Positions 8,784 to 60,142 of a stretch of DNA of 64,000 nucleotides are shown piece by piece. The translations under genes were made by a program, and so were the position numbers. The notes under the pieces are model-generated. The model had not been told where the DNA came from, did no database searches, and saw nothing but the letters and a program-made list of their open reading frames with translations. Numbering within the stretch: position 1 is the stretch's first letter; the number at the start of each line of letters is the position of its first letter. The stretch comes from Lacunisphaera limnophila (lineage in GTDB: Bacteria; Verrucomicrobiota; Verrucomicrobiia; Opitutales; Opitutaceae): the NCBI RefSeq assembly GCF_001746835.1, contig NZ_CP016094.1:3487501-3551500 (forward strand), written 5' to 3'.

Positions 8784-9725
8784 ATGCCTCCCGATCTCAA
8801 CGCCGTTCGCACCTACCTCCTCAGCTTGCAGGACTCGATCTGCTCGGCCTTGGAGCAGGTGGATGGCACCGGCCGCTTCCATGAGGACAGCTGGACCCGC
8901 GCCGAGGGCGGCGGCGGCCGCTCCCGCGTCCTGACTGAGGGCGCCGTGTTCGAGAAAGCCGGGGTCGGCTTCTCCCATGTTTCCGGCGCCACCCTGCCCC
9001 CCTCCGCCACGGCCACCCGTCCCGAACTGGCCGGCAAGCCCTTCCACGCCCTCGGCGTGTCCCTGGTCATCCACCCGCGCAACCCCTACGTGCCGACCAG
9101 CCACATGAACGTGCGCTTCTTCTGCGCCGGCGCCGGCCTTGATACTTGGCCTTTGAAACTTGATACTTCCGGCGCCGCGCCGGCGCCCGTCTGGTGGTTC
9201 GGCGGCGGCTTCGACCTGACCCCGTACTACGGTTTTGAGGAGGACGCCGTCCACTGGCACCGCACCGCCCGGGCCGCCACCGGGGCGCATTACCCGCGCT
9301 TCAAGAAGTGGTGCGACGACTACTTCTACCTGAAACACCGGGCCGAGCCGCGGGGCATCGGCGGGATCTTCTTCGACGATTTCAACGCGCCGGGCTTCGC
9401 CGCCAGTTTCGACCTCATGCGCGCCGTGGGTGACGCCTTCATCCCAGCCTACCGGCCCATCGTCGAGCGCCGCCAAGGCCTGGTCCACGGTCCGCGGGAA
9501 CGCGATTTCCAGCTCTACCGCCGCGGGCGCTACGTGGAATTCAACCTCGTGTGGGACCGCGGCACCCACTTCGGCCTGCAAAGCGGCGGCCGCACCGAAT
9601 CCATCCTGATGTCCCTGCCCCCGCTGGTCGCCTGGCGCTACGACTGGAAACCCGAACCCGGCTCCCCCGAGGCGAAACTGCACGATGTCTTCCTCCAACC
9701 GCGTGATTGGGCCGGCGAACAGTAA
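8784..9725 (+). CDS. hemF: Aerobic coproporphyrinogen III oxidase
   Basis: 313 residues from ATG at 8784. HemF oxidatively decarboxylates coproporphyrinogen III to protoporphyrinogen IX using O2. Family motifs are present: [74 protein letters not shown]. Between RFF and WWFGGG, where the family has a short variable loop, an extra segment [17 protein letters not shown] is encoded by a heptad-repeat tract (9138-9170). First gene of a hemF-hemE-hemY set. Confidence 0.96.
9126..9181 (+). repeat. Heptad-repeat element inside hemF
   Basis: Four and a half 7-nt units (CTTGATA, CTTGGCC, TTTGAAA, CTTGATA, CTTCC) at 9138-9170. They are flanked by the palindrome GCCGGCGCCGGC (9126-9137) and by GGCGC-C-GCGCC (9171-9181). 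The tract is visibly AT-richer than the gene around it and stays in frame. Confidence 0.8.
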
Positions 9726-9818
9726 GAATTCAACCGTCCCAAGTAGCCACGACACTACCCTGCACGCAGTCTCGCCGCCCGAACCATTTTCATCCTTACT
9801 GCCGACCTCCACCTTTCC

Positions 9819-10844
9819 ATGACTTCCCGCGAACGCTTCCTTGCCGCCTGCGCCTGCCAGCCCCTCGACCGCCCCCCGGTCTGGATCATGCGCCAGGCCG
9901 GTCGCTACCTGCCTGAATACCGCGCCCTCAAGGCCAAGTCCTCGTTCCTCGAGATGGTCCGGACCCCGGAACTCGCCGCCGAGGTCACCCTTCAGCCGCT
10001 CCGCCGCTTCGCCCTCGATGCCGCGATCATCTTCTCCGACATCCTCGTCATCCCCGAGGCCATGGGCCAGGGCTACAAGTTCCGGGACGCGGGTGGGATC
10101 GAGATGGATTTCCGCCTCGATACCCGGGCCCAGCTCGACCGGCTCGATCCGGTGGGCGTCCCCTTCCACCTCGAGTACGTCGGCAAGGCCCTCGCCCGCG
10201 TGAAGGCCGAACTGAAAGGCGAGAAGGCCCTGCTCGGCTTCGGCGGTTCCCCCTGGACCCTCGCCACCTACATGGTCGAGGGCGGCAGCTCCGACGACTA
10301 CCTCCGCATCAAGCAGCTGTTCTACACCGACCGTCCCTTCTTCGACGCGCTGATGAACAAGCTCACCGCGGCCCTGATCGAGTATTTCAAGCTGCAGATC
10401 GCAAGCGGCGCCGACGCCATCCAGCTCTTCGACTCCTGGGGCGGCATTATCGCCGGCCCGGATTACGAGGCCGCCTCCCTGCGCTGGATGCGCGACATTA
10501 TCGCCGCCCTGCCCAAGGATTTCCCGGTCATCCTCTACGCCAAGGGTGCCTCCTCCCAGCTCACCGACATGGCCTTCAGCGGCGCCCGCGTGCTGGGCGT
10601 GGACTGGACCGTCGACCTCGGCGTCACCCGCCGCCTCGTGCCGGCCAACATCGCCCTGCAGGGCAACCTGGACCCCGTGCTCATGAACACGACGCCCGAG
10701 ATCGTCCGCACGGAGGTCACCCGCTTGCTTGAAACCATGCGTGGCTCCCCGGGCCACATCTTCAATCTCGGCCACGGCATCATGCCTCAGGCCAAGATCG
10801 AGTGCATGGAGACCCTGGTTGAGACGGTCACCTCGTGGAAATGA
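9819..10844 (+). CDS. hemE: Uroporphyrinogen decarboxylase
   Basis: 341 residues. Removes the four acetate carboxyls of uroporphyrinogen III to give coproporphyrinogen III. Shows PPVWIMRQAGRYLPEYR (about 19-35) with the substrate-binding arginines, the FSDIL segment with the catalytic Asp, GFGGSPWTLATYMVEGG with the conserved Tyr, and FNLGHGIMPQ near the C-terminus. Full length. Lies 93 bp after hemF. Confidence 0.97.
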   Translation: MTSRERFLAACACQPLDRPPVWIMRQAGRYLPEYRALKAKSSFLEMVRTPELAAEVTLQPLRRFALDAAIIFSDILVIPEAMGQGYKFRDAGGIEMDFRLDTRAQLDRLDPVGVPFHLEYVGKALARVKAELKGEKALLGFGGSPWTLATYMVEGGSSDDYLRIKQLFYTDRPFFDALMNKLTAALIEYFKLQIASGADAIQLFDSWGGIIAGPDYEAASLRWMRDIIAALPKDFPVILYAKGASSQLTDMAFSGARVLGVDWTVDLGVTRRLVPANIALQGNLDPVLMNTTPEIVRTEVTRLLETMRGSPGHIFNLGHGIMPQAKIECMETLVETVTSWK

Positions 10845-10958
10845 GGGTGGTCGCCCTTCCGACAGAAGCGGGGCCGGTCCCTTCTCAGGCCACTCCCGGG
10901 CGAATTCTCGCCAAGATTTGCGCAGCCGGCCCGCGTGGCCTAGGCTATCCTCTCACCG

Positions 10959-12332
10959 ATGACTGCACGTAAATCCACGCACGTCGCCATCGTCGGCGCC
11001 GGTATCACAGGCCTGACCGCGGCCCTCCGTTTGCATGAGCAGGGCCACCGCGTCACGGTCTTCGAACGCGGGCCGCAGCCCGGCGGCTCCATCCGCTCGA
11101 CCTCCGAGGAGGGCTGGCTCTACGAGGCCGGCCCCAACTCCCTGCAATACGGTCCCGAGGTGAAGCAGTTGGTCACTACTCTCGGCCTCGAGGCCGAGCT
11201 CACCCCCGCCGCTCCCCAGGCCAAGCGCCGGTTCCTCGTCCGCGACGGCCGTTTCGTGGCCGTGCCCTCCTCGCCGCCGGCCCTGATCAAGTCGAAGCTC
11301 TTCGGGGCGCGCACCAAGTTCTCCCTGCTGGGCGAACTCTTCACCCGGCCGCGGATCCGGACCGCTGACCTCAGCCTCGCGGAACTCGTCCGCTCCCACT
11401 TCACCCAGGAACTGGTCGACTACGCCGTCAATCCGCTGATCGCCGGCATCTACGCCGGTGACCCCGAGAAACTCTCTGTCAGACACGCCTTCCCCGCCTT
11501 GTGGGCGGCCGAACGCTCCCACGGTTCGCTAATCCGCGGCATGATGGCCGGGGCCAAGGCCCGCAAGGCCACCGGCCAGTCCGGCGTGCCGCCCATCGTC
11601 TCCTTCCGCCGGGGCCTGCAGACCCTGACCGACGCCCTCGCCGCCCGTCTGCCCGCGGGTTCGGTCCTCACCGGCGCCACCGTCGAGACCCTTCTCCCCG
11701 GCCAGCCCCACCGCCTCGTCTGGCAGCAAAACGGCCAGTCGCAGTCCGGCGAATTCGACACCGTCGTCCTGGCGGCTCCCGCCACCGCCCTGTCGCAACT
11801 CACCGTCGGCTCCCTCGGCGAGCGCCCGCTGGCCACCTTGGAAAACATCCCGCACCCGCCGGTCAGTTCGCTCTTCCTGGGCTACCGCCGCGACCAGATT
11901 GCGCATCCGCTCGACGGCTTCGGCGGGCTCGTGCCGGCGGTGGAACGCCGCAACGTCCTCGGCATCCTCTTTTCCTCAACCCTGTTCCCGGGCCGCGCCC
12001 CGGAGGGCCATGTCGCCCTCACGATCTTCGTCGGCGGCATGCGCCAGCCCGATCACGCCCGGTTGGCTCCGGAGGCCCTGCTCCGTCTCATCGACCGCGA
12101 CCTGCAGGATCTCGTCGGCGCCAAGGGTGCGCCCGTCTTCATGCGGCACACCCACTGGCCACGCGCCATCCCGCAGTACATCCCCGGCTTCGAGCGCTGG
12201 CTCGACCAGATGACCGCCCTCGAGGCCCGCCACCCCGGTCTGTTTATCGGGGGAAACGCCCGCGACGGCATTTCCGTCCCGGATTGCATCAAGAGCGGCA
12301 CCCGGCTGGCCGAACGGGTCAGCCAAGGATAA
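10959..12332 (+). CDS. hemY: Protoporphyrinogen oxidase (FAD, HemY type)
   Basis: 457 residues. N-terminal FAD-binding motif VAIVGAGITGLTAALRLHEQGHRVTVFERG, then the PPOX substrate region (AGPNSLQYGPEV, VDYAVNPLIAGIYAGDPEKLSV) and a C-terminal FAD segment FIGGNARDGISVPDCIKSG. This matches oxygen-dependent HemY, which makes protoporphyrin IX. With hemE and hemF upstream it gives three consecutive late heme steps, two of them O2-dependent, pointing to aerobic growth. Confidence 0.94.
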   Translation: MTARKSTHVAIVGAGITGLTAALRLHEQGHRVTVFERGPQPGGSIRSTSEEGWLYEAGPNSLQYGPEVKQLVTTLGLEAELTPAAPQAKRRFLVRDGRFVAVPSSPPALIKSKLFGARTKFSLLGELFTRPRIRTADLSLAELVRSHFTQELVDYAVNPLIAGIYAGDPEKLSVRHAFPALWAAERSHGSLIRGMMAGAKARKATGQSGVPPIVSFRRGLQTLTDALAARLPAGSVLTGATVETLLPGQPHRLVWQQNGQSQSGEFDTVVLAAPATALSQLTVGSLGERPLATLENIPHPPVSSLFLGYRRDQIAHPLDGFGGLVPAVERRNVLGILFSSTLFPGRAPEGHVALTIFVGGMRQPDHARLAPEALLRLIDRDLQDLVGAKGAPVFMRHTHWPRAIPQYIPGFERWLDQMTALEARHPGLFIGGNARDGISVPDCIKSGTRLAERVSQG

Positions 12333-25212: not shown

Positions 25213-25300
25213 AAGATGACAGGGGTTGATCTCACGGCCCGCTGTCCCAACGCCCCACTTCCTAGCCAATAACCGCCGCCCGTCCACCCCCTTCTCACCC

Positions 25301-25502
25301 CCACCCTCCACCCTCTGTCGTCAGTCATCGGCAATCTGCCATCTGTCCTCAGTCATCCACCCTCCGTCTGCCCGGCGCCATCCGTCCTCTGCCATCCGTC
25401 TTCAGCCATCTGTCATCTGTCCTCCGGTCTCCGACCTCCGTCCTCCGCCCTCTGCCGTCCGCCGTCAGCCGTCCGCCGTCAGCCCTCGCCGCCCCCGGCG
25501 GC
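25301..25502 (+). repeat. Array of about 26 degenerate heptads (consensus CNGYCNT) with end hairpin
   Basis: Starts with two CCACCCT units (25301-25314), runs in strict 7-nt register to 25370, is broken by four bases, and continues in register to 25486. Examples: CTGTCGT, CAGTCAT, CTGCCAT, CCGTCCT, CAGCCGT, CCGCCGT. It ends at the hairpin GCCGCC-CCC-GGCGGC (25488-25502). Occupies the divergent gap between the four-helix-bundle gene and tyrS. The same consensus recurs at 31617-31658. Confidence 0.88.
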
Positions 25503-27072: not shown

Positions 27073-27165
27073 CCTTTTGCGCCTTTTGCGCTGCTTCGCG
27101 GCTAAACGGATCGATCCTGGCCGACTAAGGCAATTAGCCGCGAAAAACGCAAAAGGCGCAAAAAG
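27073..27165. repeat. Inverted 9-mer repeat element, copy 1
   Basis: Left arm: CCTTTTGCG, CCTTTTGCG, CTGCTTCGC, then GGCTAA. Right arm: TTAGC, CGCGAAAAA, CGCAAAAGG, CGCAAAAAG. The arms pair over about 27 bases around a 28-nt spacer (27106-27133). A diverged copy with the same 9-nt unit is at 50717-50809 and a relative at 56551-56623. Confidence 0.82.
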
Positions 27166-27215
27166 CGCATCACCCTGTAGGAGCCTGTTCACAGGCGATG
27201 CCTTGGTCTGGTGCC

Positions 27216-27300
27216 CCCTGATTTGCCCGCAAATCACCCTGAGCAAGCAAAGCGCGTCGAACGGGCAACAACAAACAACCTACAACCGCGGCGAAGCCGC
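27216..27300 (+). repeat. Composite hairpin-plus-heptad element, copy 1
   Basis: Head: GATTTGC-CC-GCAAATC stem, then CACCCTGAGCAAGCAAAG and GCGTCGAACGGG. Middle: heptads CAACAAC, AAACAAC, CTACAAC (27266-27286). Tail: hairpin GCGGC-GAA-GCCGC (27288-27300). Copies 2 and 3 are at 27606-27700 and 30351-30438. Confidence 0.82.
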
Positions 27301-27348: not shown

Positions 27349-27376
27349 AAACAACCAACAACCAATGACTGACCAC
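27349..27376 (+). repeat. AAC-type heptads overlapping the ligase start codon
   Basis: AAACAAC, CAACAAC, CAATGAC, TGACCAC in 7-nt register. The ATG of the O-antigen ligase gene (27365) lies inside the third unit, so the repeat supplies both the leader and the first codons. Confidence 0.65.
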
Positions 27377-28939
27377 TCGCAGTCTTTGCTCCGCCGCTTT
27401 CGCTCCGACCCCAAGCAGCGTCTGCCCCTGCACCCGCTCGAGCGGGCTGTCCTGACCGTCGTCGCTCTGCACCTCTGCTTCCTCCCCTGGGCCCTCGGCG
27501 CGACAAATACCTGGTCCCAAATCACCAGCCTGTGCCTGAGCACCCTAGGCATCCTCCTCGCCCTGATCCCCCGGACCTACGCGCCCGGCGAATGGCCCGG
27601 ACAACCCCTGATTTCCGGAGGAAATCACCCTGAGCAAGCGCAGCGCGTCGAACGGGCTAACAACCAACAACAAACAACCAACAACCGCCGCAACAGCGGC
27701 GCCATCCGCGTTTCGGCGCTGCCCCGTCTGCTCAAGTTTCCATTGTTCTGGATCGGCCTCGCCCTCCTCGCCTATATCGCCCTCCAAGGCTACAACCCCT
27801 CCTGGGTTTGGGAACGCAACGAGTCCACTTGGTGGCTTCGCCGGGTTAACGACATCCCCTGGCTCCCCACCTCGATCGACACCCCCTTCGAGCGCTTCAA
27901 CCTCTGGCGCCAGGCCATCATTTACGCCTCCACGTGGCTCACCCTCTGCACCGTATGGGTGGGGTTCACCCGCCGGCGAACCATCGAGCTTCTGCTGCTG
28001 GTTTTAGTGGTCAATGCCACCATGCTAGCAATCACGGGATTCGGGTTCAGGATGCTTCACGCCCCAGAATTTCTGCTCTGGTTCGACGAGCGGATGCCAA
28101 ACGTCATAACCTTTGCCAGTTTCATATACAAGAATCACGCTGGGGCCTGGCTGGCACTAATGACCGTGTTATTCGTGGTATTGGCGACAGACCGGCACTT
28201 GCGCAGCATGCAGAAGATGGATCGTTCGAGTCCCGCCGTTATATTCGTACTAGGCGCACTACTCCTGTTCTTTGCTGAAATCTTCACCTTGTCCCGAGGT
28301 GGCACAGTGCTCCTCGCTGCATATCTCATCATATCACTTTCGATATTCTTCGGCTACCGCCTGTTATCACGTTCAGAGTCGACCACCCACCCTGCTGTCC
28401 CATTCATGGTAACGCTCATGGTAGTGTTGGTAGTCGGCTACGGCGCGAGCCAACTCGATTTTCGTAGCGTGGAGCGACGTTTTAGCATGCTACTTCAGGA
28501 TAAAATCACCGATGAATCTGTACTATCCCGCGAAAAATCCCACCTCGCGAACACTGATATGCTCGGAGACTACTGGCAGCGTGGCGTCGGCGCCGGCGGC
28601 TTCCGTTTCCTTTACCCGGAATACATCAAGAAGCACCCTGAAGTCTACCGGGGTGGTCGCAATTTCTGGGAACACGCCCACAACGACTGGCTGCAGATTC
28701 CGATCGAACTGGGCGCGCCAGGATCTGCACTATTGTTGTTGGGTGCAAGCTGGTGTTTGCTAGGGATGCTAAAGCGCCATGTGTGGCGAGATTTAGCCGC
28801 ACTGCTGCTCGTGCTCGGCCTTGGTCAGACTCTACTGCACGCAACGTTCGATTTCCCGCTGCAGAATCCAGCCGTCTTGGTCACCTGGTGCGTCCTCGCG
28901 GTGCTCGTCCTGCGTCGACTGGAACTGGAAGGCGCGTAA
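27365..28939 (+). CDS. O-antigen ligase / polymerase-type membrane protein
   Basis: 524 residues from ATG at 27365, about ten membrane segments. The C-terminal half carries the Wzy_C/WaaL signature GVGAGGFRFLYPEY...EHAHNDWLQIPIELGAPG, with the His of the large periplasmic loop. It would join or polymerise lipid-linked glycan at the periplasmic face. Residues about 81-112 (GGNHPEQAQRVERANNQQQT and onward) come from an in-frame composite repeat element (27606-27700) in the loop after the second or third membrane helix. Only plus-strand gene of the polysaccharide locus; codon composition becomes AT-richer after about 28,000. Confidence 0.85.
   Translation: MTDHSQSLLRRFRSDPKQRLPLHPLERAVLTVVALHLCFLPWALGATNTWSQITSLCLSTLGILLALIPRTYAPGEWPGQPLISGGNHPEQAQRVERANNQQQTTNNRRNSGAIRVSALPRLLKFPLFWIGLALLAYIALQGYNPSWVWERNESTWWLRRVNDIPWLPTSIDTPFERFNLWRQAIIYASTWLTLCTVWVGFTRRRTIELLLLVLVVNATMLAITGFGFRMLHAPEFLLWFDERMPNVITFASFIYKNHAGAWLALMTVLFVVLATDRHLRSMQKMDRSSPAVIFVLGALLLFFAEIFTLSRGGTVLLAAYLIISLSIFFGYRLLSRSESTTHPAVPFMVTLMVVLVVGYGASQLDFRSVERRFSMLLQDKITDESVLSREKSHLANTDMLGDYWQRGVGAGGFRFLYPEYIKKHPEVYRGGRNFWEHAHNDWLQIPIELGAPGSALLLLGASWCLLGMLKRHVWRDLAALLLVLGLGQTLLHATFDFPLQNPAVLVTWCVLAVLVLRRLELEGA
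27606..27700 (+). repeat. Composite hairpin-plus-heptad element, copy 2, inside the ligase gene
   Basis: Head stem GATTTCC-GGA-GGAAATC, then the same CACCCTGAGCAAGC...GCGTCGAACGGGC as copy 1. Heptads TAACAAC, CAACAAC, AAACAAC, CAACAAC (27658-27685). Tail hairpin GCCGC-AACA-GCGGC (27687-27700). Both arms of the head stem changed together relative to copy 1 (G-C to C-G), which preserves pairing. Confidence 0.83.
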
Positions 28940-29074: not shown

Positions 29075-31522
29075 TTATTCCACCAAGCGATATTCCAGCG
29101 ACAGGAAACGCCCCGACCCAAACTCCAGCCCCTCCGGCCAGGGGATCTCGATCTCACGTTTTTTGACACTCCCCTCGGGCATCGCAGCGAACGTGATTCG
29201 CAGTCCGTCTGGTGTGTTTTCAACCTTTGCCCCCTCCGGAGCCAGTATTCGGTTCGAAAAGGCTAGCATGCCACGCTCCTCTTCTGGGACCCGCGGGCGG
29301 CTGGCGATGAAGGCCAGGTTTGCGTCAACTTGCGCGGATAGGGCTGGGGGCAGCAGGGAGGCAATCTGCGAGGATTTCATGCCACCAATATCAGGAATGA
29401 AATCGGTCACAATGCGGGCAGGCGGAATCGCGGCATCATCCGGCGTGAAAACAACCTCCGCCGAATACCGTTCATATCCCATTGCCTGGACTATAAGGGT
29501 CATTTCAACCACCCGTCGTTCCAAAGGGGCTAGTGTGATCTTCTCATTTGCTAAATCCAGTTTGAGGCCGGGAGCCTGGGCTGCGTTAGCGGGTGACGGC
29601 TCCAGTCGCCCAGTCACCTGTTTATCGGAGTAATTGTACAACACTAACTGGCCTTGCCCGTAGCGACGCGCTCCGCCCGTCACTGCGCCATCCTGGGCTT
29701 CAAGTGCCGTGCCGAGTTTCAGCACCTGCGGACGACGAATTTCAAGGGTGAGCGGGAGCTGTCTGGGATAGAGAACGAAGACCAAGGAGGCTGGCTTGTT
29801 TTCCGCCAAGCGCCACGGCAGTTCCCCCCGGCAGTAAAACGCCGCGGTGAAGTTGTCGTGGGGCTCGAGGTAGTGCTGCCAGGCAGGCGTCACCAAACGC
29901 GTGGGATACACTTCGAAGAGATTTCCGCTTTGCATGCGGATCTGCACCATGGACTCTTCACTGCGCTCAGGACGTGAGGGCATGGCCGCTGGCTTGACAG
30001 TTGGTGGTGGTGAAGAAATCGCCGCTCCTGGCTCGGCTTCGGCAGTTATTCCCACCACGAAATGCCCATTGTACCGTTTAACTGGCTGTAAGCCCTTCCC
30101 CGGCAGGAAATCGATCACGACCGGCGAAGGCGTCGGCGCATTAACAGCCCATTCCTGGGATGTCCGTCGATTACCCGTATAAAGCCCACTCATCGCATCG
30201 CTCCTAACTCCTAACGCCGCGCTTCGGGGCGCGGCCATCCACCAAGCCAGCGCCGGCGTATATTCATTCCCCCCCTGAGCCGACCCAATTTTCTCCATCC
30301 ATGCTTCGGCGCTGTTTACACCAAAATCTTCAACAGCGTATTCAATCCCACCCGCTGATTTGCGCGGCAAATCACCCTGAGCCGGCGCATCGCTTTGCCC
30401 GAGCTTGTCACTTGTTACTTGGACCTTGTTACTTGCGACGGCGCTCCCAGGCGCGACTGTCAGCCCGTACTCGTTCTGGTCGTATTCTAGAAAAGGAAGC
30501 AGGTAAAAAGCCATTGGCCCCTCAATGTTGAGCTTACTAATCTGAGTGCCGACGGACCTAAACCACCGCCACTGCCTCAACCGACCTTCCTTCGTATTAC
30601 GCGCCTTTTTGTTGAGCATGCCGTAGCCGATTTCCGTCAAAAAAACGGAAAGGTGTTTTTTGCGGAGGGTGTTGGTTGCTGGTTGTTGAGTGCTGGGGGC
30701 TGAAACTAAAAGCCGGATTCTCTCCTCCGATAGCTGCCTCACGGCGGTCTCATGCTGACGGTACACGCCGGTAAAATCATCCGCGTACCCATAATAATGA
30801 TAGTTGTAGCCGTCAGTGTAGGCGAAGCCGTCATTGGCGGCAAAGCGCTCGAGCCAGGGCCCCGGGGGCAGGCCGAGCGACCCCATGAGGACGAGGGGGA
30901 CATTTGAGAAACCTGAAACTTGAGACCTGAAACCTGAAGTAGCTGGTGCGTGCAGGTCGGAATCCTGGCTGGAAAACTCAGGTTTCAGGTTTCCGGTTTC
31001 AGGTTTTGCCTTTGCCTCTTTGATTCCCTCCTTCAGCCCCAGCCAGTAGGTTTTCAGAAAAGCGGCATAACGCTCAGGCAATTCCGGCACGAATCCGAGA
31101 TCCGGTTCATTGTCGACCTCCCAGGCATCCATGAGATCGCCGAACGCGACCCCGAGCTTTCTGCTATGCGTATAGCTCTCCCGGAGATCCTCCGGCAGGT
31201 ATTTCGTTTTCCAATCCTTGACCGAAAGACGGAGCATCATGCAGGTGCGCCAGCCAGCCGCTCGGAGCTGATGAAGCGCGTGCCGCGTTTCATGTTCCTT
31301 GGACAAATCCACGCTCCGCAAACGCACCCACTCGCCTCGCGCCTCCGCGGCAAGCTCGGTTCGCGCAAAGCGAATGGCGTCCAGTCCGCTATCGATCCCT
31401 GGTCTTTTGCCTCGCAATTCGCCCGTCGACGGCAGTGTCTGGGGCAGGCAGAGCGCGCTCAAGAACACCCCAGCGAGTAAGCATCCTGCCCAAACTCCCT
31501 TCGTTGCATGTCTTTGTTCCAA
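29075..31522 (-). CDS. Secreted glycoside hydrolase-like protein (clan GH-A type barrel) with repeat-derived insertions
   Basis: 815 residues, N-terminal signal-like hydrophobic segment. A TIM-barrel pattern is suggested by WEVDNEPD, where Glu139 of the N-E-P motif fits a catalytic acid/base, and by FLTEIGYG, where Glu297 fits a nucleophile. A beta-rich C-terminal half follows. Secreted hydrolases in polysaccharide loci often trim or release the polymer. Four stretches are encoded by repeat elements and look non-native: about residues 170-208, 270-287, 362-391 and 430-441. If they fall in surface loops the enzyme could still fold. Last gene of the minus-strand polysaccharide run. Confidence 0.72.
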   Translation of the reverse strand: MEQRHATKGVWAGCLLAGVFLSALCLPQTLPSTGELRGKRPGIDSGLDAIRFARTELAAEARGEWVRLRSVDLSKEHETRHALHQLRAAGWRTCMMLRLSVKDWKTKYLPEDLRESYTHSRKLGVAFGDLMDAWEVDNEPDLGFVPELPERYAAFLKTYWLGLKEGIKEAKAKPETGNLKPEFSSQDSDLHAPATSGFRSQVSGFSNVPLVLMGSLGLPPGPWLERFAANDGFAYTDGYNYHYYGYADDFTGVYRQHETAVRQLSEERIRLLVSAPSTQQPATNTLRKKHLSVFLTEIGYGMLNKKARNTKEGRLRQWRWFRSVGTQISKLNIEGPMAFYLLPFLEYDQNEYGLTVAPGSAVASNKVQVTSDKLGQSDAPAQGDLPRKSAGGIEYAVEDFGVNSAEAWMEKIGSAQGGNEYTPALAWWMAAPRSAALGVRSDAMSGLYTGNRRTSQEWAVNAPTPSPVVIDFLPGKGLQPVKRYNGHFVVGITAEAEPGAAISSPPPTVKPAAMPSRPERSEESMVQIRMQSGNLFEVYPTRLVTPAWQHYLEPHDNFTAAFYCRGELPWRLAENKPASLVFVLYPRQLPLTLEIRRPQVLKLGTALEAQDGAVTGGARRYGQGQLVLYNYSDKQVTGRLEPSPANAAQAPGLKLDLANEKITLAPLERRVVEMTLIVQAMGYERYSAEVVFTPDDAAIPPARIVTDFIPDIGGMKSSQIASLLPPALSAQVDANLAFIASRPRVPEEERGMLAFSNRILAPEGAKVENTPDGLRITFAAMPEGSVKKREIEIPWPEGLEFGSGRFLSLEYRLVE
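30201..30234 (-). repeat. Short GTTAGGA heptads with hairpin in the glycosidase gene
   Basis: On the minus strand a CCGCGC-CCCGAA-GCGCGG stem-loop is followed by GTTAGGA, GTTAGGA. Same hairpin-then-heptad plan as the longer elements; in frame. Confidence 0.55.
30351..30438 (+). repeat. Composite hairpin-plus-heptad element, copy 3, inside the glycosidase gene
   Basis: Head stem GATTTGC-GCG-GCAAATC and CACCCTGAGC as in copies 1 and 2. The heptad block has a different word: CTTGTCA, CTTGTTA, CTTGGAC, CTTGTTA, CTTGCGA (30404-30438). So the head is conserved while the repeat word is exchanged. Lies antisense to the gene but adds a whole number of open codons. Confidence 0.8.
30668..30702 (+). 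repeat. GTTGNTG heptad tract inside the glycosidase gene
   Basis: GGTGTTG, GTTGCTG, GTTGTTG, AGTGCTG, GGGGCTG in register. On the coding strand it gives SAPSTQQPATNT, the same low-complexity composition seen in the ligase and epimerase insertions. Confidence 0.7.
30902..31011. repeat. Inverted heptad element (AAACCTG / TTCAGGT) inside the glycosidase gene
   Basis: Left arm: ATTTGAG, AAACCTG, AAACTTG, AGACCTG, AAACCTG (30902-30936). Right arm: CTCAGGT, TTCAGGT, TTCCGGT, TTCAGGT, TTTGCCT (30977-31011). The arms are reverse complements around a 40-nt spacer and all of it stays in frame. Confidence 0.82.
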
Positions 31523-31616
31523 AGTCTGGCGAGCGAACGGGTGAACCCGTAGCCTGCCAAGCGTAAATCGGACGGAGGCAGAAGGTCGATAGACGACATT
31601 AGTCCGGCCTCGTCGT

Positions 31617-31658
31617 TAGTCCTCAGCCATATGCTGTCCGTCCTCAGCCGTCCGTCGT
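31617..31658 (+). repeat. Second CNGYCNT heptad tract
   Basis: TAGTCCT, CAGCCAT, ATGCTGT, CCGTCCT, CAGCCGT, CCGTCGT in 7-nt register between the sugar transferase and glycosidase genes. Same word and orientation as the long array at 25301-25486. Confidence 0.72.
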
Positions 31659-31685
31659 CCGCGGACAAAACCTCATTCCCCTTAA

Positions 31686-47512: not shown

Positions 47513-48592
47513 TCATGAGCCGATCCCCTTCAGCCAATCCCGATTCGCCACATACCAATCAATCGTCTTTCGGAAACCATTCTCGGGGGAAACGAGCGGC
47601 CTCCAACCGAGGAGCCGACCGGCTTTGCCGATGTCGGCTTGCGTGTCGGTCATGTCGAGTGGATTGGCCGGCTGCTGATCGATGACCGCCTTGCGGCCGA
47701 GAAATCCCTCCAGCAGGGTGATCATCGAACGGATCGTAAGCGGCCGGTTGCCGCCACCCAGGTTGATCACCTCATACCCTAGAGGCTTCGCGGCGAGAAT
47801 CGTCCCGCGGGCGATGTCGTCCACGTAGGTGAAGTCACGCGACTGGCTGCCATCACCGAAAAGCGTGATCGGCTGACCGGTCGCCACCCAGTGCACAAAA
47901 CGATACGGCGCCATGTCCGGCCGGCCGGCCGGGCCGAACACCGTGAAGTAACGAAGGACGGTGACATCGAGGCCGTGGTTCCGATGGTACTCCTGCGCCA
48001 GAAGTTCCGCCGCCCGCTTCGTCTCCGCATAGGGCGATTGCATCCGGCCGAGGGCGGCGTCCTCCCGGAACGGCATCGCGCACCCCGCATACACCGAGGA
48101 ACTAGAGGCCACCACGTGCTTCCGGACACCATACTTCACCTGGCACTTCAGGATATTCTCCTCTCCAAAGACATTCGTCCGCCGGTACAGGTCCGGGTAC
48201 TCCAAACTCGCCCGCACGCCTGCCCTAGCAGCCAGGTTGAAGACGGCGGTGAAATTGTGCGCGTTGAAAACCTCTTCCAAAGCCGTGAGGTTCTCGATGT
48301 CGAGGTGGTGGAAGGTGAACGTTCCAGAATTGTTGGTTGCTGGTTGTTGGTTGTTTGGTTTCGACCCCGCCAACAAATCTCCTCCAGCAGGCAAACCAGC
48401 CGCAAACCGGGACACTTTCGAATCCGAGCCCAACAACGGACAACAAACATCCAACAACCTTGAAAGACGGTAGTCTTTCAACCTGACGTCATAGTAATCA
48501 TTCAGATTATCCACGCCGACCACGGTGTGCCCGTCCGCCAGCAACAGTTCGCACACCTTCGACCCTATAAAGCCGGCCGCGCCGGTTACCAA
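47513..48592 (-). CDS. UDP-glucuronate 4-epimerase-like NAD-dependent epimerase with repeat insertion
   Basis: 359 residues from TTG at 48592. Rossmann motif TGAAGFIGS, DNLNDYYDVRLKDYRLSRL, ASSSSVYAG and YAETKRAAE (Y-x3-K) identify the GalE/UDP-glucuronate epimerase class. Residues about 47-90, between SRL and TFTFHHLD, are extra; they are encoded by an inverted heptad element (48329-48458) and read VCCPLLGSDSKVS...PNNQQPATNNSG. The usual few residues before VTGAAG lead straight into another repeat element, so the original start may have been lost and the TTG is a best guess. Confidence 0.85.
   Translation of the reverse strand: MVTGAAGFIGSKVCELLLADGHTVVGVDNLNDYYDVRLKDYRLSRLLDVCCPLLGSDSKVSRFAAGLPAGGDLLAGSKPNNQQPATNNSGTFTFHHLDIENLTALEEVFNAHNFTAVFNLAARAGVRASLEYPDLYRRTNVFGEENILKCQVKYGVRKHVVASSSSVYAGCAMPFREDAALGRMQSPYAETKRAAELLAQEYHRNHGLDVTVLRYFTVFGPAGRPDMAPYRFVHWVATGQPITLFGDGSQSRDFTYVDDIARGTILAAKPLGYEVINLGGGNRPLTIRSMITLLEGFLGRKAVIDQQPANPLDMTDTQADIGKAGRLLGWRPLVSPENGFRKTIDWYVANRDWLKGIGS
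48329..48458. repeat. Inverted heptad element inside the epimerase gene
   Basis: Left arm ATTGTTG, GTTGCTG, GTTGTTG, GTTGTTT (48329-48356). Right arm CAACAAC, GGACAAC, AAACATC, CAACAAC (48431-48458). A 74-nt spacer lies between. A perfect hairpin TTGAAAGAC-GGTA-GTCTTTCAA follows at 48460-48481. The whole element is in frame. Confidence 0.85.
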
Positions 48593-48608
48593 GTAACAGG
48601 CGCGAAGG

Positions 48609-48810
48609 TTGTTGGTTGTTGGTTGTGAGTTGATGGGGAGATGCCGGAGCAGGTTGTTAGTTGTTAGGTATTGGTTGTTGGGGCCTGTCTTTCAGACACT
48701 CAATCCGTGGTTCGTTATTGGATGTTACTAGTCAGATCCCGAGGGAAGGTGCGTGGTTCAAGGCCGCCTCGGTGTATTTCCCCAACAACAATCAACCATC
48801 AACCAACAAC
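48609..48810. repeat. Inverted heptad element filling the gmd-epimerase gap
   Basis: Left blocks GTTGTTG, GTTGTTG, GTTGTGA, GTTGATG (48609-48636) and GTTGTTA, GTTGTTA, GGTATTG, GTTGTTG (48654-48681). Right block CAACAAC, AATCAAC, CATCAAC, CAACAAC (48783-48810). The last codons and stop of gmd lie in the right block; the left block ends 16 bp before the epimerase start. Confidence 0.85.
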
Positions 48811-49868
48811 CCCGCCGCGTCCGCTCGCGCCATCGCGCGGGCGACGTCGGCACCGGCCGTCTTCGCCTTCCAACCTAGGACCTTCTTCGCCACGCGGGCG
48901 TCACCCACAAGCCGCACGCTGTCCAGGGGGCGGTAGAATTTGGGATCCACGCGGAGAACGCTGGCGCCCGTGTCGGTGCGCCGGGCCACTTCCTTCGCGC
49001 CCTTCCCTTCGAACTTCAGCTTCAGTCCCAATTCAGCGAATGCAGCCGAGGCAAATTCGCGCACGGAACAATCCCGTCCAGTGGCCAGGACGTAGTCGCG
49101 GGCAGCCTTGGCCTGCAACGCGTCCGCCATCGCGACCACATACTCCGGCGCCCAGCCCCAGTCGCGCCGGGCATCGAGGTTGCCGAGAAAGATCTCCTTC
49201 TGCTTCCCCGCGACAATCCGGGCCGCACCCGTCGTGATCTTGCGCGTGACAAAGTTCTCCCCGCGCCGCGGCGACTCGTGGTTGTAGGCGATGCCGTTCA
49301 CGGCAAACAGCCCGTAGGCCTGCCGGTACACCCGGACCATCTGCGCCGCAAAGGCCTTGGCGCAGCCATACGGATTCATCGGGTTGAAAGGCGTGGCCTC
49401 ATTCTGCGGCGCGATCGTGGGGGCGCCAAAGAGTTCCGAACTGGCGGCATGATAAACCCGCACCGGGTAGCCGACATCCCGCAGGATCTCGAGGAGGGCC
49501 AAGGTCGCGACGGCGTTCTCCTGGCAGGTCACCTCGGGGATCTCGAAACTGAGTCCCACATGGCTCTGCCCGGCCAGGTGGTACACCTCCGCCGGCATTA
49601 CCTTCTGGATGATCCGCCGCAAAGAGGTCGCATCCGTGAGATCGCTATAATGAAGCGTGAGGTCGCCCTTCCCCTTCCCTCCTGCGTTACGCAGGTGCTC
49701 AATACGACCGCGGTTGAACATACTGGACCGCCGCACCAAGCCGTGCACGGCATAGCCGCGGCCCATCAGCAGTTCCGTCAGGTAGGAACCATCCTGGCCC
49801 GTGATGCCAAGGATAAGCGCGCTGCGGCGCGCCGGCTGAGACCTGAGTTTGTGCGTGGTACGGCCCAT
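48792..49868 (-). CDS. gmd: GDP-mannose 4,6-dehydratase
   Basis: 358 residues. TGQDGSYLTELLMGRGYAVHG (NADP-binding), AASSELFG (Ser), NPYGCAKAF (Y-x3-K) and NHESPRRGENFVTRKI are diagnostic. Converts GDP-mannose to GDP-4-keto-6-deoxymannose, precursor of fucose or rhamnose units for the polymer. The C-terminal LLVDG and stop are formed by the repeat element at 48783-48810. First gene of the minus-strand polysaccharide run. Confidence 0.96.
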   Translation of the reverse strand: MGRTTHKLRSQPARRSALILGITGQDGSYLTELLMGRGYAVHGLVRRSSMFNRGRIEHLRNAGGKGKGDLTLHYSDLTDATSLRRIIQKVMPAEVYHLAGQSHVGLSFEIPEVTCQENAVATLALLEILRDVGYPVRVYHAASSELFGAPTIAPQNEATPFNPMNPYGCAKAFAAQMVRVYRQAYGLFAVNGIAYNHESPRRGENFVTRKITTGAARIVAGKQKEIFLGNLDARRDWGWAPEYVVAMADALQAKAARDYVLATGRDCSVREFASAAFAELGLKLKFEGKGAKEVARRTDTGASVLRVDPKFYRPLDSVRLVGDARVAKKVLGWKAKTAGADVARAMARADAAGLLVDG

Positions 49869-56623: not shown

Positions 56624-56635
56624 GTGAGCTTCCGC

Positions 56636-57436
56636 ATGGACAAGCTCTCCGAGATCATGGCCCACAAGCGCCGCGAGGTCGCCCCGCTGCTGCGTCCGGT
56701 CTACGCCGCCGAGTTGGAGGAACTCAACCGCCGGCTCCCCCGCCCCCCCTCCTTCGCCGCCGCCCTGCGCCGGGCCGACGGCCGGCTCGCCATCATCTCC
56801 GAGATCAAGCGCCGCTCCCCGTCCGCCGGCGCCATCAAGGCCGGCGCCTCCGCCGTGGCGCAGGCCCGCCTCTACCGCGCCGCCGGCGCCGCCGCCCTGT
56901 CCATCCTCACCGACACCGAGTATTTCGGCGGCAGCCTGGCCGACCTGATCGAGGTCACGGCCGACTTCGCCCAGGGCCCCGCCGCCCCCATCCCCTGCCT
57001 GCGCAAGGATTTCATGGTGCACCCGATCCAGGTGATGCAGGCCCGTGAGGCCGGCGCCAGCGCCATCCTGATCATCGTGCGCGCCCTCGATGACGACGAG
57101 ATCACCGCCCTGCACCAAGCTGCGACCGCCGCCGGGCTCGACGCGCTGTTTGAGATCCACCACGAGGAGGAACTCACCCGCGCCCTGCGCCACGGGGCGA
57201 AGATCATCGGCGTCAACAACCGCGACCTCGCCCATTTCCGCACCGACATCGGCCTCTCCGAGCGTCTCATGCCGCTCTTCCCCCGCGATGTCATCGCCGT
57301 CAGCGAAAGCGGTTTCGCCACCGGTGCCGACGCCACTCGGGCCCGCGCCTGCGGGGCCCATGCCCTGCTGGTCGGCGAGTCGCTCATGCGGGCCCCCGAT
57401 CCGGCCGCCCTGATCCGGGAGTTCCAAGGGGCCTGA
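56636..57436 (+). CDS. trpC: Indole-3-glycerol phosphate synthase
   Basis: 266 residues from ATG at 56636. SEIKRRSPSAG (catalytic Lys), DTEYFGGSL, PCLRKDFMVHPIQV, GVNNRDL and SESGF are all present. Closes the indole ring in tryptophan synthesis. Not near trpB. Upstream in-frame coding is an antisense reading of mazG. Confidence 0.96.
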   Translation: MDKLSEIMAHKRREVAPLLRPVYAAELEELNRRLPRPPSFAAALRRADGRLAIISEIKRRSPSAGAIKAGASAVAQARLYRAAGAAALSILTDTEYFGGSLADLIEVTADFAQGPAAPIPCLRKDFMVHPIQVMQAREAGASAILIIVRALDDDEITALHQAATAAGLDALFEIHHEEELTRALRHGAKIIGVNNRDLAHFRTDIGLSERLMPLFPRDVIAVSESGFATGADATRARACGAHALLVGESLMRAPDPAALIREFQGA

Positions 57437-57454
57437 TTGATTTCACCTGCCGGA

Positions 57455-57468
57455 GCCTGTCCGCAGGC
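57455..57468. repeat. GCCTG-TCCG-CAGGC hairpin
   Basis: Small stem-loop in the 42-bp trpC-rsmA gap, same stem as at 27183-27196 (loop TTCA) and 29004-29017 (loop CTCG). The stem is constant and the loop varies, a REP-like family. Confidence 0.5.
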
Positions 57469-57478
57469 GCCGCCGCCC

Positions 57479-58303
57479 ATGCCTCTCTCTCCTTCCGCCA
57501 CCCGTGACCTGCTCACCCGCCTCGGCCACCAGCCGAAGCGCTTCCTGGGTCAGAATTTCCTGGTCGACGGCAACATCGTGCGTAAATCGCTCGAACTGGC
57601 CGGCATCACCGCGGCCGACACCGTGGTCGAGGTCGGGCCGGGCCTCGGCACGCTGACGTCCGCCCTCCTCGAGGCGGGCGCCGAGGTGTGGGCCGTGGAG
57701 AAGGATCGCCAGCTCCACGCGCACCTCACCGAGACCCTCGTGCCGGCCCACCCGCGCCTCCACCTCATGGAGGGCGACGCCATGGAGGAGCCCCTGGCCG
57801 GCCTGCCGCCGGAAAAATCCGCCGCCTTCAAGATCGTGGCCAACCTGCCCTACGCAATCTCCACGCCGTGGATGGACGCCGTCCTCTCCGGTCCGCTGCC
57901 CGTCCGCATGGTCCTCATGCTCCAGCAGGAGGCGGCCCAGCGCTACGTTGCCCAACCCGGCACGAAGCTCTTCGGCTCCATCTCGATCTTCATGCAGTCC
58001 GCCTACGTGATCGAGCCCGGCCACCGCGTTGGCTCGGGGTGCTTCTTCCCGAAACCCGACATCGAGTCCGTCCTTCTGAACCTCGGCCGCCAGCCCGCGC
58101 CCTTTGTGTTTCCGGCGGCCACCAAGGCGCTCATCCGCGCCTGCTTCCAGCAACGGCGCAAGCAGCTCGGTTCGATCCTGCGCGACAAGGTCCCCGCCGA
58201 GACCCTGGCCCGCTGGTTTGCCCGGCTCGAGGCCGCGGGTCACGGCCCCTCCTCGCGGGCCGAGCAGGTACCGGTGGCACTCTGGCGCGAATTCATGGTC
58301 TGA
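57479..58303 (+). CDS. rsmA: 16S rRNA dimethyladenosine transferase
   Basis: 274 residues from ATG at 57479. KRFLGQNFLVDGNIV, VVEVGPGLGTLTSALL (SAM site), VEKDRQLHAHL and the catalytic NLPYAIST motif. Dimethylates two adjacent adenines near the 3' end of 16S rRNA. Confidence 0.96.
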   Translation: MPLSPSATRDLLTRLGHQPKRFLGQNFLVDGNIVRKSLELAGITAADTVVEVGPGLGTLTSALLEAGAEVWAVEKDRQLHAHLTETLVPAHPRLHLMEGDAMEEPLAGLPPEKSAAFKIVANLPYAISTPWMDAVLSGPLPVRMVLMLQQEAAQRYVAQPGTKLFGSISIFMQSAYVIEPGHRVGSGCFFPKPDIESVLLNLGRQPAPFVFPAATKALIRACFQQRRKQLGSILRDKVPAETLARWFARLEAAGHGPSSRAEQVPVALWREFMV

Positions 58304-58351
58304 ACCCCGGCCACTTGCCATTTGGTTTCTTTCCACCCACGCTCCACTCCC

Positions 58352-59017
58352 ATGTCCCGGTTATTCCCGCCCCTGCTGTGCAGCATCCTGCTGGCGGTGG
58401 TGTCGGCGCCCGCCGCCCCGCTGCGCGGCCTGATCGACGGCGACACCTACGTCTCGCCCACGGGGCAGTTCCGCGTCCGCACCCCCGTGCGGACAGAACT
58501 CGGGGGTAAGATCACCGACACGACCAACGTCGTCACGTTTCAGGATGACTTCGGCACGCATGTCAGCATCGCCTGCTTCGAACTCGATGCCACCCAGCGC
58601 TGGGAATACGACACCCGCGGCCTGCGCGACTACCTCCTGTATTTTCTGACCGACCTGCTGATGGCGAACTTCTCGGCCCGCTTCCCCGGGGCCACGATCG
58701 AGAGCGCCCGCTTCCTGCCGCAACTCATGGAGGGCGCCCTGATTGGCTACGTGCTGTTGCCCGGCGGCTCGGAGTTCGAGCATTTCAACCGCGTGACCGA
58801 CGCCCCGCCCGCCGACCCGGTTGTGGCCAAGCGCGGCACCCTGCTCTTCGTGCGGCACCGCTACCTCTACGCGATCAGCACCGAATTGTCCGAGCGCGCC
58901 ACCCAGCGCAGCACCTACACCCTCACCCGGGAGCAGGAGGATGAGCAGCTGTCCGCCCGCCTGATCGCCCTGTCCGGCCGCCTCACCTTCACCAACGACC
59001 GGCCGCGCACCCCCTGA
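58352..59017 (+). CDS. Secreted hypothetical protein
   Basis: 221 residues from ATG at 58352. Signal peptide ending near VSAPAAP. The body has an SPTGQFRVRTPV start, a VVTFQDDFGTHVSIACFEL strand pair and RGTLLFVRHRYLYAIS, a compact alpha/beta domain I cannot assign. It is 3 bp from the downstream Gre-family gene, so probably co-transcribed. Confidence 0.65.
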   Translation: MSRLFPPLLCSILLAVVSAPAAPLRGLIDGDTYVSPTGQFRVRTPVRTELGGKITDTTNVVTFQDDFGTHVSIACFELDATQRWEYDTRGLRDYLLYFLTDLLMANFSARFPGATIESARFLPQLMEGALIGYVLLPGGSEFEHFNRVTDAPPADPVVAKRGTLLFVRHRYLYAISTELSERATQRSTYTLTREQEDEQLSARLIALSGRLTFTNDRPRTP

Positions 59018-59020
59018 CCC

Positions 59021-59503
59021 ATGCCCAAAACGGAACTGCTCGCCGGTATCATCGCCCGCCTCGAAGCCGAACTGGCCCTGCTCACCTCCGCCGCGCTGGC
59101 CACCCACGCCGAGGCCACCGATGAGGAAAACAAGGCCGAGGACAAATACGACACCCGCGGCCTGGAAGCCTCTTATCTCGCCCACGGCCAGTCCAAGGCA
59201 GCCGAGGAAACCGCCCTCGCCGTGGCCCAGTTCCGCGCCCTCTCACCCCGCGATGCCACCGCCGGCGACCCGATCAGCCTCGGGGCCCTGGTCATCGTCG
59301 CGGATGCCGGCGGCCGCCAGTCGCGTTATTTCATCGGCCCGCGGGCCGGCGGCACCGAGGTCACTTTTGGGGCGCACACCATCATGGTGATCACCCCGCA
59401 GTCCCCCCTCGGCCGCGAACTCGTCGGCCGCCGCCTCGGCGACCGCGTCGCCATCCCCCTCGGCGGCAAACGCAGCGAGCTGACGATCAGCCAGATTATC
59501 TGA
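59021..59503 (+). CDS. GreA/GreB-family transcription factor
   Basis: 160 residues. N-terminal coiled-coil with acidic tip (EATDEENKAEDKYDTRGLE), then a GreA/B C-terminal FKBP-like domain with ISLGALVIV, FIGPRAGGTEV and SPLGRELVGRRLGDRVAIP. Shortened relative to GreA; likely binds the RNA polymerase secondary channel. The stop is followed directly by a hairpin and heptad element. Confidence 0.8.
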   Translation: MPKTELLAGIIARLEAELALLTSAALATHAEATDEENKAEDKYDTRGLEASYLAHGQSKAAEETALAVAQFRALSPRDATAGDPISLGALVIVADAGGRQSRYFIGPRAGGTEVTFGAHTIMVITPQSPLGRELVGRRLGDRVAIPLGGKRSELTISQII

Positions 59504-59504
59504 G

Positions 59505-59649
59505 CCGGCGAAAACGCCGGTATGGTTGTTCGTTGTTGGTTGTTCGTTGTTGGTTGAACGGACAGAAACCAAGCAGGCCAGCATGTCGGTTGTCCGTGGC
59601 TCATCCGGCTGCCCCAACAACCAACATCTAACAACTAACAACCAATCCC
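59505..59649. repeat. Inverted heptad element with head hairpin
   Basis: Hairpin CCGGCG-AAAA-CGCCGG (59505-59520). Left arm GTTGTTC, GTTGTTG, GTTGTTC, GTTGTTG, GTTGAAC (59525-59559). Right arm CAACAAC, CAACATC, TAACAAC, TAACAAC, CAATCCC (59615-59649). Spacer 55 nt. Lies between the Gre-family and FKBP genes. Confidence 0.87.
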
Positions 59650-59695
59650 CCATTCACCCGTTGACGCCTGCGCCCGGTCGGCTTGTGCTCCCCGC

Positions 59696-60028
59696 ATGGC
59701 CAACGCACAGCTCCTCATCGAAAAACTCATCACCGGCACCGGTGCCTCGCCCAAGCAGGGCGACCTCGTGACCGTTCACTACACCGGCTGGCTGACTGAC
59801 GGCAGCAAGTTCGACAGCTCCGTCGACCGCGACGAGCCCTTCCAGTTCGGCCTCGGCCTGCGCCAGGTGATCGGTGGCTGGGACCAGGGCGTCGCCACCA
59901 TGCGCATCGGCGACAAGGTGAAGCTCACCATCCCGCCCCACCTCGGCTACGGAGCCGGCGGTTATCCCGGCGCCATCCCGCCCAATGCGACCCTCATCTT
60001 CGAAGTCGAGCTCCTCGCCATCGGCTAA
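59696..60028 (+). CDS. FKBP-type peptidyl-prolyl cis-trans isomerase
   Basis: 110 residues, a single minimal FKBP domain without signal peptide: [64 protein letters not shown]. The conserved active-site aromatics (Tyr, Phe, Trp, Tyr) are in place. Catalyses prolyl isomerisation, likely cytoplasmic. Confidence 0.95.
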
Positions 60029-60033
60029 CCGCA

Positions 60034-60142
60034 CCGGCTCTGCCGGCTTGAGGGTTTGAAGATTTGAGGGTGTGAGGGTTGGAGGATCGGAAAATCCTCA
60101 TACCCTCGCACCTTCACACCCTCACCCCGTCGCACCCTCACC
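60034..60142. repeat. Inverted octad (8-nt) element
   Basis: Small palindrome CCGG-CTCTG-CCGG (60034-60046). Left arm CTTGAGGG, TTTGAAGA, TTTGAGGG, TGTGAGGG, TTGGAGGA (60047-60086). Loop of 8 nt. Right arm TCCTCATA, CCCTCGCA, CCTTCACA, CCCTCACC, CCGTCGCA, CCCTCACC (60095-60142). Same plan as the heptad elements but with an 8-nt unit kept throughout. Confidence 0.85.

Follow-up and report, generated by a model that had tools for sequence, protein, structure and literature searches.

Imperfect, Mostly Heptameric Arrays of Lacunisphaera Can Keep Their Site and Layout While the Word Differs between Species

Introduction

How can arrays of one unit length recur in a genome in one layout and yet be written in different words? 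The question is raised by a stretch of 64,000 nucleotides of Lacunisphaera limnophila (bases 3,487,501–3,551,500 of its single-contig genome of 4,199,284 bases, hereafter G000), which is called the window here and which holds many tandem arrays of short, imperfect units, mostly of 7 nt. An initial annotation of the window had described at least fifteen tracts of 7-, 8- or 9-nt units in strict register and had proposed a copying process that conserves length and fold rather than sequence. In this work, the tracts were compared with shuffled sequence and then with a genus search set of 21 genomes, G000 included, in which G012 is a sister species. We find that the site and layout of such arrays can persist while the word differs between species.

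The Tracts of the Window and Their Reality

Tracts were scored at each lag p by adding 1 for a match and subtracting 1.5 for a mismatch. At period 7 the window holds 10 tracts, where 30 dinucleotide shuffles gave a mean and a maximum of 0, which rules out chance for the family. One tract was found at period 8 (0 in shuffles) and one at period 9 (0.03 in shuffles, maximum 1), with 0 tracts in the window at periods 5, 6 and 10–13. The sites picked by the initial annotation were moreover tested one by one, at p values uncorrected for that choice, against 1,599 stretches of 120 nt from the shuffled window. By this measure 12 of the 18 listed tracts are individually clear (p = 0.0019 or less), namely those of 7 nt at 25301, 26961, 27266, 27658, 30404, 30668, 30902, 48329, 48609 and 59525, the 8-nt tract at 60047 and the 9-nt tract at 27073. 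Three more are marginal: 9138 (p = 0.021), 56551 (p = 0.036) and 31617 (p = 0.041), the last of which was reported by Tandem Repeats Finder (TRF) at 31611–31661 with period 21 and score 53. The remaining three, 12382 and 49880 (p = 0.38 each) and 50717 (p = 0.13), are unsupported against the shuffles. The earlier observation is largely real, and the family of tracts is not chance.

Different Words at the Same Sites

One shared site lies in an epimerase gene (families PF01370 and PF16363), whose relatives are about 60–70% identical. Its site 2, between the motifs ILAxxLG and NLGGG, carries an array in five of the 27 gene copies read (an incomplete copy in G084 was not scored), with scores of 15.5–20.5 in G067, G018 copy 2, G014 and G010 and of 50 in G012. 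The words are TCAACYC in G014, TCARCTC in G018 copy 2, CGAGCTA with AAAGCTG in G010, GACGGAG in G012 and ATCGGAG with CTCCGAA in G067, those of G014 and G018 copy 2 being one or two letters apart in arrays of equal length. The epimerase tree groups G012, G010, G014, G018 copy 2 and G000 in one clade (ultrafast bootstrap 92, with 39–60 at its inner nodes), and AP[TGS] follows directly after the array in all four bearers of this clade. Because of the clade and the shared AP[TGS], the simplest reading is that within the clade site 2 was probably inherited, its word rewritten, and the array lost in G000. G067 stands outside the clade, and its array in the same loop is an independent event.

At site 3 the full G012 copy carries GGACGGA (score 19.5), and downstream of it a second, incomplete copy of the gene's 3′ half (L080, about 3410900–3411600) carries GCTCCNN (9.0, p = 0.006); G029 holds an inverted pair there, GCAAAGN / CTCTTNG, with scores of 10.5 and 11.5. 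Since the identity of the two G012 copies drops from 96% over the 100 bp before the site 2 array to 74% over the 250 bp after it, the second word may have been brought by recombination with another lineage. As to loop 1 of the same protein, the nearest solved structure, 5u4q, aligns to residues 1–46 and 91–347 and skips the insert at residues 49–88, whose ends are too diverged in the alignment to define. A structure prediction from 15 sequences reached a mean pLDDT (predicted local distance difference test) of 59 and was not used. In G014 (L004) a GC-rich palindromic repeat, GGCGCGTT...AACGCGCCCTAC, lies in frame in loop 1, where G000 has a heptamer pair.

A second shared site is a loop of the O-antigen ligase family (PF04932), matched in 17 of the 21 genomes. 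Twelve loci were fetched, two were dropped as paralogues (28–29% identity) and 10 were compared. Arrays of AACAACC in G000 (score 16), CAGGTTT in G012 (19) and GAAACCT in G017 (15.5) and G010 (11.5) occupy the loop, which holds a weak tract in G003 (score 8) and no array in five of the 10 orthologues, so that no score above 8 was found in six of the 10. Moreover, the region before yqeY, taken from 8 of the 21 genomes and resolved in 7 (not in G006; G013 was not scored), carries a pair of 8-mer arrays in G000, an 8-mer array in G012 (p = 0.0019), a 9-mer array in G008 (p = 0.0009), a weak heptamer tract in G003 (p = 0.097) and no array in G014 and G005. Within G000 itself, arrays sit at one corresponding position in three paralogues (3403598, 3411179 and 3415537), of which one has an extra CAGGTTT array. 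Some words in these paralogues and in epimerase loop 1 (LLG) resemble nearby native codons by eye, on which no claim is made.

Altogether, orthologous loci were found to hold arrays or none, and to differ in word at the same sites, and the initial view of differing words on one architecture is borne out. The in-frame arrays of different words in the epimerase and ligase loops, array-free in most relatives read, are new here, and we know of no earlier work on word replacement at orthologous protein loops.

Genome Vocabulary and Abundance

When pairs of far-apart arrays were compared (same word defined as 6 of 7 letters), the share of same-word pairs within a genome was 373 of 2,327 in G000, 49 of 260 in G012, 22 of 212 in G010 and 1 of 75 in G014, as against 2.4–7.9% between genomes and 2.1% for letter-shuffled words. 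Because of this within-genome share, the well-sampled G000, G012 and G010 are each seen to have a few words of their own, recurring at many sites. In G014 the recurrence of words is mainly a nearby one (17 of 99 pairs within 20 kb). In the same line, nine occupants of shared sites match the other arrays of their host better than those of random hosts (p = 0.001, after removal of arrays sharing 18 nt with any occupant, in samples as small as four arrays in G018 and with occupants that are partly non-independent). The words of occupants thus tend to follow the vocabulary of the host genome, though the G018 occupant word is more frequent in G012 (7 of 15) than in its own host (1 of 4).

Abundance was measured in 1.512 Mb, comprising 56 pieces of G000 (1.112 Mb in all) and 20 of G012 (0.4 Mb); of these 76 pieces, 75 measure 20 kb and one 12 kb. 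Of the G000 pieces 20 were picked around matches, 20 were spread regardless of matches and 16 were later additions, many adjoining picked ones. Period-7 tracts of score 12 or more numbered 47 in the picked G000 pieces, 8 in the spread ones and 23 in G012; a single shuffle of each set yielded none. The same three sets gave 0 to 3 tracts at periods 5, 10, 11, 13 and 17, and 8, 2 and 1 tracts at period 8, while counts were also raised where the period is a multiple of 3 or of 7. At a score of 11 or more, 103 tracts were counted over the whole 1.512 Mb and 5 in shuffled sequence.

A period-7 excess over shuffles was seen in 7 of the 9 genomes sampled, a few of the tracts counted in this multi-genome sample being homopolymers. 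Tracts per 100 kb amounted to 2.8 in the spread G000 pieces, 6.5 in G012, 4.8 in G010, 6.2 in G014, 3.3 in G016, 2.9 in G018 and 20 in G008, for which 40 kb were sampled and all tracts lay in one piece. Pieces of 15–20 kb centred on the epimerase held 5, 7 and 1 tracts in G010, G014 and G018. In about 103 kb sampled from G002 and G005, whose genomes are of about 2.8 Mb and gave no Y1_Tnp match, no period-7 tract was found.

Beyond the genus, the pattern GARACCTG x4 matched at least 120 stretches, whose record titles point to at least ten phylum-level groups; 80 of the stretches were analysed (the named loci), and Opitutaceae, including Lacunisphaera, occur among them. No transfer between phyla is claimed, since such a distribution is indistinguishable from many genomes each having many words.

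Anatomy of the Arrays

Arrays consist of few to many units in which some positions of the word are fixed and others free. They occur in the intervals separating genes as well as in frame within variable protein loops. In G000, where AACAACC, AAGAAGG and AAACCTG are common words, the 78 units of AACAACC deviate in 19 cases at position 7, in 11 at position 2 and never at positions 3, 4 and 6, whereas the 33 units of GAGTAGC deviate in 15 cases at position 2 and never at positions 3, 5 and 6. For AAACCTG, position 2 deviates in 19 of 49 units in G000 and in 22 of 46 in G012; in the Flavobacteriaceae loci it does so in 7 of 312 units, and position 5 deviates most (57), in a sample biased by a search pattern that fixes four units. 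Inside one array, the word can give way to another in register, as at G000 307953 and in L181.

Register is kept within an array, as initially claimed, whereas unit length differs between families. An 8-nt family, TGAGGGTN, is found at window position 60045 and at G000 3012635, 3017709 and 3027703, and a 9-nt family, CGCAAAAAG, at window position 27139 and at G000 3557231, the window copies of both being laid out as inverted arrays. Another 9-nt family, of the CCTATAGGC type, occurs at four G000 places (452516, 706154, 3443789 and 3560456). A unit length of 7 is a preference and not a law: these families, and the region before yqeY, 8-mer in G000 and G012 and 9-mer in G008, show that length is not universal, which speaks against strict copying of the fold.

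The second, inverted array of the initial description was confirmed: among neighbours separated by 10–250 nt in the sampled 1.112 Mb of G000, 12 of 18 pairs are inverted, 2 direct and 4 unrelated. The corresponding counts are 2, 1 and 2 in G012 and 29, 8 and 29 for the 66 pairs of the named loci, not all independent, and random array pairs have nearly equal inverted and direct shares. At Wenzhouxiangella locus L172, and in part at L112, the mirror is nested, one word lying outside and another inside; these few two-word mirrors suggest an origin by folding back. Copying from arm to arm was examined through the longest common substring of the arms relative to unit-shuffled arms and was not supported (43 pairs, Wilcoxon p = 0.15); the unit-variant order is not mirrored, and the idea of fold-conserving copying is unsupported in this respect. 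For the 14 pairs of G000 and G012, too, no mirrored variant order beyond unit-shuffled controls was seen (p = 0.53), one of the pairs (G000 3634793) sharing 24 nt in order between its arms (p = 0.12).

The small GC hairpin, described earlier as a regular part of the architecture, holds mainly for AACAACC, the one class in which it is enriched: 10 of 29 such arrays have a GC stem of at least 6 bp no more than 34 nt from their 3′ end, compared with 3 of 29 for the 5′ end and with 10 of 182 among the flanks of other arrays. As a general component it was discarded, with 21 of 212 flanks against 8–16 of 211–212 in distance controls and 686 of 15,200 windows taken at random. The hairpin at 59504–59521, with the T-rich array that follows it, scans as terminator-like; in the kilobase around it the scan gave three sites of this kind, where shuffles gave 0.7. 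Folded as single-stranded DNA (ssDNA), six stretches gave z values of −5.6, −2.0, +1.0, −4.7, −3.8 and −6.7, the +1.0 stretch having been taken without its second arm. No Rfam match, to a group I intron or to anything else, was found in the window, and the common G000 words do not have the run of three G per unit that marks G-quadruplex heptamers.

Arrays of the Window

The arrays of the window, some of them inside open reading frames (ORFs), are the following:

25298..25487, minus strand: longest array stretch of the window, CNGTCNT-class heptamer, tracts 25298–25357 and 25407–25487, period-7 scores 13 and 36.5
27073..27169, unstranded: inverted pair of 9-nt arrays, CCTTTTGCG / CGCAAAAAG, period 9 p = 0.0006, ssDNA fold z −6.7
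27267..27287, plus strand: AACAACC-class array, then GCGGCGAAGCCGC, period 7 p = 0.0013
27659..27702, plus strand: AACAACC array and GC hairpin CGCCGCAACAGCGGCG in the O-antigen ligase gene 27365–28939, region of residues 79–114, score 16
30404..30435, minus strand: CTTGTTA-class array in ORF 29075–31522, p = 0.0019, TRF 30404–30435
30667..30702, minus strand: GTTGCTG-class array in ORF 29075–31522, p = 0.0013
30908..31006, unstranded: inverted pair GAAACCT / AGGTTTC in ORF 29075–31522, residues 173–205, scores 14 and 17, z −5.6
48330..48472, minus strand: AACAACC-class inverted pair with native codons between its arms, epimerase loop 1 (ORF 47513–48592), arm 48330–48355 score 14; second arm (about 48432–48460) identified by eye
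48607..48811, unstranded: GGTTGTT arrays 48607–48632 and 48653–48679 and inverted array 48786–48811
59504..59645, unstranded: GC hairpin, GTTGTTC array, spacer and inverted CCAACAA array in the interval between a GreA-type gene and an FKBP gene, scores 17.5 and 15, z −4.7
60045..60147, unstranded: inverted pair of 8-nt arrays, TTGAGGGT / CCTCACAC, in the FKBP / yqeY interval, period-8 score 20, p = 0.0006, z −3.8

The CNGTCNT class at 25298..25487 is purine-rich on the minus strand. The GDP-mannose dehydratase gene (48792–49868, minus strand), whose protein ends in LLVDG, takes its final codons and its stop from array 48786–48811. In ORF 29075–31522 the alignment with G012 is interrupted at residues 177–206, the region of the inverted pair. 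Short, weak protein matches of G003 and G017 to residues 167–216 of this ORF cover the region of the GAAACCT array only, and same-word arrays in unrelated genes may mimic homology. An imperfect dispersed palindrome, CCCTGATTT...AAATCACCCTGAGC...GTCGAACGGGC, lies directly before arrays of different words at window positions 27218, 27605 and 30370 and adjoins several other arrays of G000.

Possible Origins of the Arrays

The mechanism we infer, to which we give an even chance, combines slippage and strand switching, with survival of the arrays at harmless sites. Arrays would be born and resized by replication slippage in steps of one unit, and the inverted partner would come from strand switching at the replication fork. 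Point changes would then be spread along the array by further slippage, so that the word drifts at constant unit length, and arrays would survive where they do little harm, as in spacers, behind terminator-like hairpins and in surface loops of proteins. As reasoned from the genetic code, a heptamer array gives the same codon cycle in every frame, so that an array with a stop-free word can expand or shrink by three units (21 nt) and stay in frame. The period-7 excess, the surplus of inverted over direct neighbours, the nested mirror of Wenzhouxiangella L172, the near-identical words of G014 and G018 copy 2, the epimerase clade with its shared AP[TGS] and the published link of 7 nt to the polymerase support this origin, and the in-register word shifts inside one array are expected of slippage with mutation. 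Several observations weigh against this origin. The slippage step itself was seen nowhere, since no close strains with arrays were found and the relatives are too diverged (about 60–70% identity in the epimerase), and the variant order is unmirrored between arms. The inner nodes of the epimerase clade are weak (39–60), with G000 inside it lacking the site 2 array, and G067 shows an independent event at the same loop. Furthermore, local drift alone fails to explain one word at many sites of a genome, or word positions that stay fixed across sites; behind these could be a mover in trans, a selected core or a genome-wide rewriting.

A mover in trans is possible, if doubtful. The arrays would then be the inverted ends of a non-autonomous element, similar to miniature inverted-repeat transposable elements or REPINs, with a family-specific word and a transposase supplied in trans, and permissive loops would be hit again. 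One word at many sites, occupants that match the host vocabulary and the independent G067 event would follow, and some AACAACC loci share a longer flank, the palindrome CCCTGATTT...ACCCTGAGC...GTCGAACGGGC. In a masked all-against-all comparison, however, most loci have no common long flank, so that no element beyond the array is defined (the masked flanks are mostly unrelated, and shared pieces are short or come from a separate palindrome or paralogous genes), and the arms in the epimerase enclose native codons. A RAYT as the mover is unlikely: no array of score above 9 lies in the 3.3 kb around either of the two Y1 transposase genes of G000, one of which sits among GTAGGGCGG inverted repeats. 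Y1_Tnp matches were found in 16 of the 21 genomes; G029, 91% complete, has none and yet carries the array pair at epimerase site 3. The joint lack of Y1_Tnp and sampled arrays in G002 and G005 is weak evidence for a RAYT since these genomes are small. At L083 (G000 2125223–2125519 and flanks), inverted repeats of the TGTAGGGCGGGGTCGCCGA type surround a Y1 transposase gene and look like its own repetitive extragenic palindromic (REP) elements.

Somewhat less probable is a dispersed, concerted rewriting, by which inherited sites would be overwritten with the current word of the host through a copying activity acting on all arrays; if true, a lineage would swap all of its heptamer words, whereas the sites, the unit length and the inverted layout would stay. 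We consider it unlikelier still that the arrays are regulatory or structural sequences (protein-binding sites, terminators or RNA stems) with lineage-specific cores kept by selection. The fixed core of AACAACC, the 3′ hairpins of this class, the terminator-like site at 59504 and folds with z of −3.8 or lower in four of six stretches speak for selection, but it would have to accommodate arrays in unrelated protein loops (five of 27 epimerase and four of 10 ligase copies), different words between genomes at one site and no arrays in the sequence sampled from G002 and G005. Finally, chance low complexity or ordinary coding repeats can be regarded as refuted for the family as a whole. Six of the 18 listed tracts are marginal or fail to exceed shuffles, and periods divisible by 3 are raised as for coding repeats, but 7 is not divisible by 3 and its excess recurs in 7 of 9 genomes, a few homopolymer tracts included. 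Slippage with strand switching remains our preferred origin, at the even chance given above.

Comparison with Known Systems

Mrazek's 2007 work on long simple sequence repeats (SSRs) of bacteria reportedly found heptamers to be the commonest long unit in many genomes and proposed slippage. The present arrays resemble this class, and the short tandemly repeated repetitive (STRR) sequences, in their 7-nt excess over other unit lengths and in being dispersed with several words per genome. They are degenerate heptamers of the kind known in cyanobacteria, Xanthomonas and Beggiatoaceae, with genic word replacement as the unusual trait, and the early suggestion that cyanobacterial heptamer repeats are the nearest analogue is upheld. 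Among the papers listed in searches of the open-licence PMC literature, none dealt with such repeats in Verrucomicrobia, Opitutaceae or Lacunisphaera. The bacterial surplus of heptamers is a long-standing oddity with polymerase slippage as the standing hypothesis, and a published hypothesis takes 7 nt as the DNA segment gripped by the polymerase (both as cited in PMC4692102 and PMC4679880).

Several systems share only part of these traits. The GGGAATC heptamers of Xanthomonas and GGGGA(C/T)T of Nostoc form dispersed arrays, single or in inverted pairs (PMC4692102); as described there, each is one G-run word, quadruplex-capable and mostly intergenic, unlike the several words found here, which are also in frame within genes and, in the common cases, free of three-G runs. 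TAACTGA repeats are likewise heptamer arrays in scattered phyla (Beggiatoaceae, Cyanobacteria and Bacteroidetes), with lineage-specific placing and some inside ORFs, and between two Cyanothece strains they changed mostly by 7-nt indels (PMC4679880); they are described as one word, mostly direct and just before start codons, and TAACTGA is absent from our word catalogue. Rickettsia palindromic elements are also inserted in frame in unrelated genes, with inverted symmetry (PMC10969869), but as families of about 150 bp with a conserved peptide, where we find tandem heptamers and no conserved element of about 150 bp. The tandem repeats of Borgs, archaeal extrachromosomal elements, evolve fast, arise independently and add disordered protein stretches (PMC9879509); unlike the arrays here, they are perfect amino-acid repeats.

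The closest system in behaviour is the P6b stem of the group I intron in tRNA-Leu(UAA) of Nostoc and Calothrix, where degenerate heptamers of two unrelated but structurally similar classes, TDNGATT and NNTGAGT, occupy both sides of a stem whose length varies by repeat copies (PMC4476775, PMC3488679). In Nostoc trnL, Class I heptamers of similar structure repeatedly took the place of Class II ones at the same site (PMC4476775). The arrays studied here likewise have the same degenerate heptamer on both arms and, in epimerase site 2 and the ligase loop, class replacement at one site. Unlike P6b, a single RNA locus where two classes occur and the stem is required, the present arrays involve many sites, many words, protein genes and another phylum. 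The same protein loops with different words or none make the birth, spread and replacement of words addressable at orthologous sites, and the arrays show one way in which variable loops get added to enzymes of surface-sugar synthesis. The present case carries P6b-like behaviour over to more than one site and into protein genes, in a different phylum.

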